IMG/VR virus record: IMGVR_UViG_3300047470_000312
Span: 1-39,312 of that record
DNA: 39,312 nt
Direction: 5' to 3' (one strand)
Source of the DNA: a virus
Numbering within the stretch: position 1 is the first letter of the stretch; every line of letters begins with the position of its first letter. Positions 2,365 to 37,075 of this stretch are shown piece after piece. The notes under the pieces were generated by a model. The model did no database searches and was not told where the DNA came from. It saw nothing but the letters and a program-made list of their open reading frames with translations. A program made the translations under genes and the position numbers.

Positions 2365-2718
2365 TAGGGTCCCATACCGCACCTGTGGCCGGTGCGCAAG
2401 GGCATCTAGACTGTATGGGTGATGAACCCACTACAAAGGGTGTCCAATTTTTAGGCTTTCGTACCCCTTCCCTGGTGTTTCCCTTACCGTTCAGTACGCT
2501 ATACTGGGTACTAGAGCGGGCCGGTAGGGGTTGAGAGCCTTACGGTTTGCTTCCCCCTGACTCCCTCCCGTCACACTGACACCCGTTTCGGGAGGGAAAA
2601 GGGGAGAACCTGAGTTAGCGGTAGCTTTTAGCAAGTGCGGGCATGATGAAAGTTTGGGCGGCCACCCCAAATGAGTAATCGCGAATGGTCGCAGACTCCT
2701 AAAAGCTACCGCTAATTT
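2365..2718 (+). ncRNA. Candidate structured noncoding RNA or leader region
   Basis: The 390-base gap between genes contains at least six perfect or near-perfect complementary segments. Helix 1: 2371-2377 with 2413-2419. Helix 2: 2378-2383 with 2391-2396, stacked on helix 1. Helix 3: 2481-2488 with 2523-2530 (one G-U), enclosing hairpin 2492-2496/2502-2506. Helix 4: 2562-2570 with 2589-2597. Helix 5: a perfect 17-bp pairing 2615-2631/2699-2715 enclosing hairpin 2653-2658/2666-2671 and stem 2673-2676/2695-2698 with 2681-2684/2689-2692. Loop bases 2578-2584 complement 2438-2444, giving a possible pseudoknot. A -10-like TATACT lies at 2500-2505 without a good -35. A T-rich stretch follows helix 5. 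It may be a free RNA or the leader of the next gene. Confidence 0.6.
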
Positions 2719-3437: not shown

Positions 3438-3989
3438 ATTAAGTGCGTAGCTCACCTGACAGGATTCAAATGGGAATGTCAAACTCCAGAGGATTGCGAG
3501 AGTTCTAGTGGACCTGTTGAGTATTCTTTTTCTGATTCTGTTTTGGACGACAGTGGGCGTTCTGATTTGGAGACGGAGGACGAAGAAGAAATAGAGCTAC
3601 GCACTTATAAAGACGATTCAGCGCTCCGTGACCAGCAATCCACGGGGCGAAAGCGTGCTGCCCGCGCATACCCTATGGATGAAACCGCAGTATGCGAATG
3701 GTCCATGCAAAACAATTGCGGTGGAGGTAAGTTCCCAATAACGGGTTGTGCTGGTAACCTACAGCAAGCACGTCATCACGGACCTGACAAAAACACTTTG
3801 AACAACGAGAAGGGAAACGTTCACCGAATTTGTCACACGTGCCACAATCGCTGGCACACTTTGAATGATCCAAATTATGTATGGGGTGGTCTGTATGACG
3901 CCCATGCTCCTGTCATTGCGACAGCTGAAAGTCTCCTTGCCAGTGATGTTTTCTGGAAGGATCGCAAGGTAGTGAAAGCAAAGGACTAA
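3438..3989 (+). CDS. HNH endonuclease with probable ATT start
   Basis: Predicted DNA nuclease of the HNH fold. The core runs from C104 through ARHHGPDKNTLNN (H113, H114), N127-V-H129 and ICHTCHNRWH (C132, C135, H136, H140), the metal-binding and catalytic pattern seen in many actinophage HNH proteins. The N-terminal third is acidic with C3, C14 and C20. No ATG, GTG or CTG lies near the strong AAAGGAGG at 3425-3433 in this frame; ATT 3438 sits four bases after it. The next in-frame start, TTG 3543, has no ribosome site and would drop a coding-looking segment. A GTG at 3443 is in another frame and stops after 21 codons. Role: homing, packaging or recombination nick; unresolved. Confidence 0.8.
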   Translation: MKCVAHLTGFKWECQTPEDCESSSGPVEYSFSDSVLDDSGRSDLETEDEEEIELRTYKDDSALRDQQSTGRKRAARAYPMDETAVCEWSMQNNCGGGKFPITGCAGNLQQARHHGPDKNTLNNEKGNVHRICHTCHNRWHTLNDPNYVWGGLYDAHAPVIATAESLLASDVFWKDRKVVKAKD

Positions 3990-36390: not shown

Positions 36391-36407
36391 CGGATCAAAT
36401 GAGAAAG

Positions 36408-36429
36408 CCTCCCTCCGGGGAGGTTTTTT
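36408..36429 (+). terminator. Intrinsic terminator of the small-gene block
   Basis: CCTCCC (36408-36413) pairs with GGGAGG (36418-36423) around TCCG, followed by six T residues. Confidence 0.88.
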
Positions 36430-36962
36430 CAGGGCCCCGCATGGAAAAGCGGGTGGACTGTTGGTCAGTCGTCAGACTCTCTGTAGTGTCAGTGGTGTCA
36501 GTCGTGGGTCCTACCCCCTCGGTTGGCGGTCGCTCCAAATGGTGCAGCCGGTTTGAGTCCGGTGGCCAAATGGGCTGAAGGCAGTAACGGCGAATGCGAC
36601 TTGGGCCCCAATTGGGGATTTGAGAACTGAACAGTGGATTCAAATTCGAGCGACGCAACGTTGTGAAACGTGGCTGACCTCAAAAGCACATTTGGAAATC
36701 AGCGAACCAACCACCTGTTGGCGTAATTGATACCTCCCCCTTCCCTGAAATATCGCATTGACTCTAGGGCGCTCCTGAAAAGGAATTAACCAGAAAACGG
36801 ACGTCCCGGATGTTCCCCGTGCTCGCGGGGCTCGTTCAATGAGTGATTTCAAACCGGGGTAAATTCAAAACCGTCACGAATGGTCAGTTGGCCAACGCAC
36901 GATTTCTGTAAGACCTCGAACAGACTTGCGACGGCACCTTTAGGTGATCCTCGCATAAATGC
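36430..36962. other. Non-coding stretch with unusual elements
   Basis: No convincing gene on either strand in 533 bases. It holds a GTGTCAG/GTGTCAG repeat near 36487-36500, a tRNA T-arm-like hairpin at 36547-36563 without the rest of a tRNA, and the CRISPR-repeat-like hairpin at 36812-36834. Some short frames exist but lack ribosome sites. Confidence 0.4.
36812..36834 (+). repeat. Single type I-E CRISPR-repeat-like hairpin
   Basis: CCCCGTGCTCGCGGGG (36815-36830) forms a 6-bp stem (one T-G pair) with a 4-base loop, the same size as the hairpin of type I-E repeats (E. coli CCCCGC/GCCA/GCGGGG). The preceding GTT also matches. The 3' flank (CTCGTTC) does not match the usual handle. Only one copy and no cas genes, so it is not an array. 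A plain RNA hairpin is the simplest alternative. Confidence 0.35.
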
Positions 36963-37075
36963 TTGACAGATCTGCTTTGGACATGATATGCCCCCGGGGC
37001 GGTTGGTTGTAGCGGAAATTCGTTACATCACCTGGGGGATTCATGACCATTGCAGCCCTGTCCAAGTGCTAGAAT
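36963..37075 (+). promoter_or_regulatory. Tandem promoters of the 356-residue gene
   Basis: Promoter 1: -35 TTGACA at 36963-36968 with -10-like GATATG at 36985-36990 (16 bp). Promoter 2: extended -10 TGCTAGAAT at 37067-37075, start expected about 37082. Between them is GCCCCCGGGGC (36990-37000), a GC palindrome. The leader to ATG 37117 has GAAAGG. Confidence 0.6.

Follow-up and report, generated by a model that had tools for sequence, protein, structure and literature searches.

Genomic setting of the gap between two early genes

The window analysed here is the whole 39,312-nt stretch of IMG/VR virus record IMGVR_UViG_3300047470_000312. The record spans 39.3 kb, with the early gene block on the + strand and mostly − strand genes at about 11.9-36.2 kb. 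A gene for an SNF2-type helicase (55-1875) lies upstream of a gap whose borders and content are as follows:

2229-2348, acidic 39-aa ORF, the gene directly 5′ of the RNA
2369-2717, + strand, whole structured RNA of about 350 nt, with homologues L002, L169, L170 and L175 in the same gene interval
2740-2943, zinc-ribbon-like ORF, the gene directly 3′ of the RNA

The RNA has the same orientation as the early operon. Further downstream of the gap, genes for GntR-like, HNH-like, PD-(D/E)XK nuclease and Sak4-like proteins follow, of which the HNH label, like that of the zinc ribbon, was read from sequence, Pfam giving no match for either. At least four of the five phages compared below share a conserved HNH-like protein (3438-3986), which also has a similar protein in Arthrobacter phage Jasmine. 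Its best-aligned start in the window is an ATT codon, with AAAAGGAGG just before it. The helicase is distantly related to proteins of Cellulosimicrobium, Arthrobacter and Microbacterium phages, with about 27-33% identity for the best matches.

A second conserved non-coding stretch was observed at the start of the early block (window 36400-36990, + strand; G002:28876-28990; G001:16019-16379). In G001 and G002, the RNA lies about 11-12 kb downstream of this conserved early leader and shares its direction. The stretch carries ATTTGAGAACTGAACA followed by ACGTTGTGAAACGT (36618-36671), and a TTGACA sits further downstream at about 36963. We take the ATTTGAGAACTGAACA/ACGTTGTGAAACGT arrangement to resemble the boxA-type leader of actinobacterial rRNA operons, and by this analogy the phage could be borrowing rRNA-style antitermination. 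A piece resembling a tRNA T-arm, GCCGGTTTGAGTCCGGTGGCC, lies inside the same leader at about 36547-36570, where ARAGORN calls no tRNA.

A conserved structured RNA in five related phages

Folding of the gap yielded an energy of −164.9 kcal/mol in comparison to a shuffled mean of −127.1 kcal/mol (z = −6.1), a value equalled by none of 100 dinucleotide shuffles. For the homologue L002, z was −8.1. Homologues L002, L169 and L170 were found in IMG/VR via the helicase and then by helicase alignment (59-63% protein identity), and in all three the RNA lies downstream of the helicase gene. The fifth copy, L175, was found with a DNA pattern derived from the RNA, GCAGACTCC...CCGCTAAT. This phage has homologous HNH and exonuclease genes, and the RNA is again located upstream of the HNH gene common to the relatives. 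A second DNA pattern, in which the P2 loop was joined to TATACT, retrieved no phages beyond the same four. The comparative set therefore stands at five sequences from a single phage clade, all of them IMG/VR virus records.

DNA identity to the relatives amounts to 77-82% in the best-conserved 3′ stretches, over 75-231 nt. Identity in the flanking protein genes is lower (63-73%), apart from one 65-base stretch at 75%. All frames of all homologues contain stops, and no consistent frame is shared. A candidate conserved ORF on the − strand (window 2491-2670, similar places in L002 and L175) was rejected, as both frames and sequences disagree.

Using a model of the 3′ domain, the RNA was found to be missing from three cousin phages (Cellulosimicrobium DS1, Arthrobacter Casserole and Microbacterium Shocker), and no match was obtained among 94 other contigs. 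BLAST searches of phage and plasmid collections with the RNA gave no match, and no cultured phage with the RNA was found. Searches with the zinc-ribbon protein and with an HNH alignment produced no usable relatives. A scan of 84,980 bacterial and archaeal genomes with a degenerate DNA pattern, a single rigid one that may miss diverged prophage copies, returned two unrelated coding matches, L193 and L194, neither of them matched by the covariance model. As far as the collections show, the RNA is confined to one phage clade with records near 46 kb.

Comparative analysis of the 3′ domain

The 3′ domain comprises helices P6, P6b, P7, P7b and P8:

2551-2606, + strand, P6, pairs 2551-2556/2601-2606, enclosing P6b; 100% of cells paired, one-sided variation only
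2562-2597, + strand, P6b hairpin, 2562-2570/2589-2597; two-sided changes in five pairs
2613-2631, + strand, P7 5′ strand, partner 2699-2717; 18 modelled pairs, 100% of cells paired in phages having letters on both sides, six pairs with two-sided changes
2632-2635, + strand, CAAG side of an internal loop, the other side being GACUC (2694-2698); invariant in five phages
2636-2639, + strand, P7b strand UGCG, partner 2690-2693; compensatory G-C to A-U change in L169
2653-2671, + strand, P8 hairpin, loop with GGCCAC at 2660-2665; from the five-phage comparison
2699-2717, + strand, P7 3′ strand, followed by a U-rich tail; same column-pair comparison as the 5′ strand
2716-2724, + strand, UUUUAUUUU tail after P7, terminator-like 3′ end; U-rich in all five phages

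Across this domain, 96.2% of the cells are paired in comparison to 88.7% after shuffling, and two-sided changes occur in 13 pairs in comparison to 6.1; neither value was reached in any of 500 shuffles. Shifting the partner by 1-3 columns lowered pairing to 42-57%. In order to avoid circularity, the window was excluded and RNAalifold was run on the remaining four phages, which recovered P6, P6b, P7 and P7b. The resulting leave-one-out model finds window 2547-2717 at 141.7 bits (E ~1.6e-33). The 3′ domain has 15 G-U but no A-C combinations among its paired cells, which identifies the + strand as the RNA.

P7 followed by UUUUAUUUU would suit an intrinsic terminator, but the stem carries an apical domain of about 70 nt, and a terminator scan makes no call here. 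Inspection of the CAAG/GACUC internal loop led us to reject a kink-turn there, as the sequence does not suit tandem G-A pairs. Large lineage-specific insertions occur in the P7-P8 domain, amounting to about 80 nt in L170 (7817-7930); that of L002 (7714-7768) contains a hairpin GTTTGAACAT/ATGTTCAAAC. Because of these two insertions, the P7b-P8 junction appears to tolerate extra helices.

Comparative analysis of the 5′ domain and long-range contacts

The 5′ part of the RNA and the elements linking it to its surroundings are listed below:

2369-2374, + strand, P1 5′ strand, partner 2400-2405; imperfect here, perfect or near-perfect (GUCACC/GGUGAC type) in the other phages
2378-2396, + strand, P2 hairpin CGCACC/GGUGCG, loop UGUGGCC; two-sided changes in three pairs, five phages
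2385-2390, + strand, GUGGCC in the P2 loop, with a predicted kissing contact to 2660-2665; complementarity in all five phages
2400-2405, + strand, P1 3′ strand, conserved closing helix with 2369-2374
2417-2429, + strand, P3 hairpin GGGU/ACCC around invariant GUGAU; analogous hairpins in homologues by inspection, weak
2429-2477, + strand, P4 arm, 2429-2431/2475-2477 and 2436-2441/2463-2469; same position in four to five phages
2481-2488, + strand, PX strand (alternative helix), partner 2523-2530; combined z −2.75 over five phages, modest
2500-2505, + strand, invariant UAUACU, apical in PX and −10-like as DNA; identical in all five phages
2521-2545, + strand, P5 hairpin, loop with invariant GAG, excludes PX; combined z −2.74 over five phages, modest
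2740-2745, + strand, GUGGCC at the start codon of the downstream ORF, with which the P8 loop could pair instead; GUGGCC/U lies 22-29 nt beyond the RNA in four of the five phages

For P1, P2 and P4, 86.3% of the cells are paired, a level matched by one of 500 shuffles, and six pairs show two-sided changes. The distance from GUGAU to TATACT is steady at 81-82 nt. P3, PX and P5 are weaker helices than the remainder; the z values for PX and P5 derive from per-sequence energies against mononucleotide shuffles, as MAFFT misaligns this region. PX and P5 compete for strand 2523-2530, and this modest evidence makes a switch between them possible.

A sequence-only reading of the gap had already proposed a structured RNA, and every complementary stretch that it named exists where it was placed. 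The five-phage comparison bears out its hairpins 2378-2383/2391-2396 (P2) and 2562-2570/2589-2597 (P6b), as well as its closing stem 2615-2631/2699-2715 (P7), which extends to 2613/2717, together with the two inner arms (P7b and P8). Its first helix, 2371-2377/2413-2419, did not hold: L002 and L169 have partial counterparts, L170 and L175 lack any, and the conserved helix is 2369-2374/2400-2405 instead. A pseudoknot between 2578-2584 and 2438-2444 has a counterpart in none of the homologues, and a 7-base match of this kind arises in about 10% of shuffles. TGGGT/ACCCA, put forward as a competitor of the first helix, looks real as a local hairpin (P3), short of formal support. The proposed helix 2481-2488/2523-2530 gains modest support, but as just one of two mutually exclusive pairings of 2523-2530; the idea of a switch survives in this modest form.

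A 6-bp kissing contact between the loops of P2 (2385-2390) and P8 (2660-2665) is likely. In L169 the P2 loop reads GUGGUC, and pairing with the P8 loop is kept through a G-U; the contact is otherwise near-invariant, so that it carries almost no covariation support.

Taken together, a structured RNA of about 350 nt, non-coding and conserved, is encoded in window 2369-2717 (+ strand), a conclusion we regard as virtually certain. Compensatory changes, the signature that the sequence-only reading had suggested looking for, are present in P2, P6b, P7 and P7b, and the conserved coding frame that would speak for a gene is absent. Some of the pairings first named do lie at chance level, yet conservation and compensatory change in five phages refute chance pairing in a G+C-rich gap, which we consider negligible as an explanation.

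Comparison with known structured RNAs

No Rfam 15 family matched the window at gathering scores. At permissive thresholds, applied to the window and three relatives, only chance-like matches appeared (snoRNA, human miRNA, lncRNA), a permuted tmRNA among them at E = 8; ARAGORN reported neither tRNA nor tmRNA in the window. Riboswitch aptamer models did not match the window, nor the window and three relatives at permissive thresholds. The GOLLD and ROOL models gave no gathering-score match in the window and were absent among the permissive matches. No text on non-coding RNA in Arthrobacter phages came up in a literature search. The first assignment to a structured phage RNA outside tRNA, tmRNA, 6S RNA and known riboswitches is thus upheld by the compensatory changes in five phages, by the missing conserved frame and by Rfam.

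Several known RNAs share single traits with this one. In cobalamin-type leaders, the loop of a hairpin close to the ribosome-binding site forms a kissing contact with a loop in the upstream domain, an arrangement also predicted here; the Rfam model, however, is unmatched, and the downstream genes vary, none being B12-like. HK022 put is a short pair of stem-loops. Such put/EAR-type antitermination RNAs are likewise structured elements within an early phage or long operon transcript, but the phage RNA described here is several times longer than put. One motif is shared with 6S RNA, the −10-like UAUACU, here presented by hairpin PX, whereas a single long hairpin with a central bubble and an Rfam match are both missing.

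The closest kind is that of ROOL (659 nt for the one solved) and GOLLD (frequently above 800 nt). These RNAs of phages and prophages, whose function is unknown, assemble into cages made of RNA alone that have kissing loops (Nature 2025, PMC12286853). Common to all are a phage-borne, non-coding nature, an ornate secondary structure and a loop-loop contact, which is predicted in our case. ROOL and GOLLD RNAs measure from about 660 to over 800 nt, often lie near tRNA islands and have Rfam families of their own. In contrast, the present RNA has about 350 nt, roughly half of ROOL, and sits in an early operon of a window with no tRNA genes. As it shares their kind but is matched by neither model and differs in length and setting, it is a new family within the known kind of large structured phage RNAs. 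That it could instead have diverged from a known family (tmRNA, RNase P, group I/II intron, cobalamin riboswitch, GOLLD, ROOL or HEARO) is highly improbable: its kissing-loop architecture generally resembles several of these, but the searches described above speak against all of them.

Possible modes of action

The RNA starts 6-20 nt past the stop codon of the gene before it, and 19-37 nt separate its end from the next start. As 6-20 nt before P1 leave no space for a promoter of its own, it is probably co-transcribed with the operon. The immediate downstream proteins include no two similar ones among the five phages, and the immediate upstream neighbours just one similar pair. An RNA that stays constant while its surroundings vary usually points to an RNA gene in its own right. 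Since the genes on both sides were exchanged while the RNA stayed, we favour a stand-alone RNA that would be cut from the early transcript and act in trans, with a probability of about 0.5. Transcribed as part of the early operon, such an RNA would have its 3′ end formed at or near the P7 stem and U-rich tail. The 5′ domain (P1-P4) and the 3′ domain (P6-P8) would be locked together by the 6-bp GUGGCC/GGCCAC kiss, and the compact molecule would present the invariant unpaired UAUACU, GUGAU and CAAG/GACUC loop to a protein or RNA partner. Following excision, it would act away from its own transcript.

A cis-acting role is only slightly less probable. The RNA would then be an intercistronic gate in the early mRNA that controls whether the recombination genes further down (GntR, HNH, Cas4-like nuclease, Sak4-like ATPase) are translated or reached by read-through. 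AACCU beside P7 would pair with the Shine-Dalgarno AGG, and the GGCCAC of the P8 loop would take either the P2 loop or the start-site GUGGCC as its partner. The lack of promoter space, the constant closeness to the next start and the GUGGCY near that start count against action in trans and fit a cis element. So do the orientation and tight spacing shared by all five phages and the mutually exclusive helices PX and P5. In the window, L169, L170 and L002, GUGGCY follows the RNA at a distance of 22-29 nt, in three of these phages at the start codon; the L002 copy does not open the long ORF, and L175 has none. The recurrence of GTGGCC/T at or near the next start codon is seen although the downstream genes are unrelated. 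CCU/AGG pairing is possible in four phages and CUU/AAG in L002, but extends over 3 bp only. Weighing further against a gate, the downstream gene differs in every phage, and size and complexity exceed those of most leaders. The same variability counts against an antitermination leader of a zinc-ribbon operon as first suggested, since the zinc-ribbon gene adjoins the RNA in this window only.

In an unlikely variant, the RNA would sense which promoter made its transcript, so that translation of the next genes would depend on transcript origin. Operon read-through RNA, containing 2481-2488 and the P2 loop, would form PX and the P2-P8 kiss and leave the start codon free. RNA begun at the internal TATACT would contain neither and form P5; the GGCCAC of its P8 loop would pair with the start-site GUGGCC and silence that start. 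UAUACU may serve as an RNA motif at the PX tip, as a −10 element in the DNA, or in both ways. The invariance of TATACT and a purine-G about 8 nt downstream would also suit a feature that is mainly DNA, either an internal promoter or a replication origin with hairpins. However, the sequence about 17 nt upstream of TATACT is GTTNCC-like rather than a TTGACA-like −35, and the cumulative GC skew climbs smoothly across 2-3 kb, with no turning point at the RNA. Compensatory changes and the 15 G-U and 0 A-C cells reflect selection on the RNA strand. A promoter may overlap the RNA, yet it cannot account for P1-P8, and a DNA element as the main feature is very unlikely.

The known large structured RNAs of phages are few, and no function has yet been assigned to ROOL or GOLLD. 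The RNA described here adds a compact one in a defined early-operon site, with conserved loops, a predicted kiss and a clear question of action in cis or in trans. That its neighbours were exchanged while it stayed indicates that the RNA is kept under selection in this clade, where its target early in infection is possibly the transcription or translation of the host.
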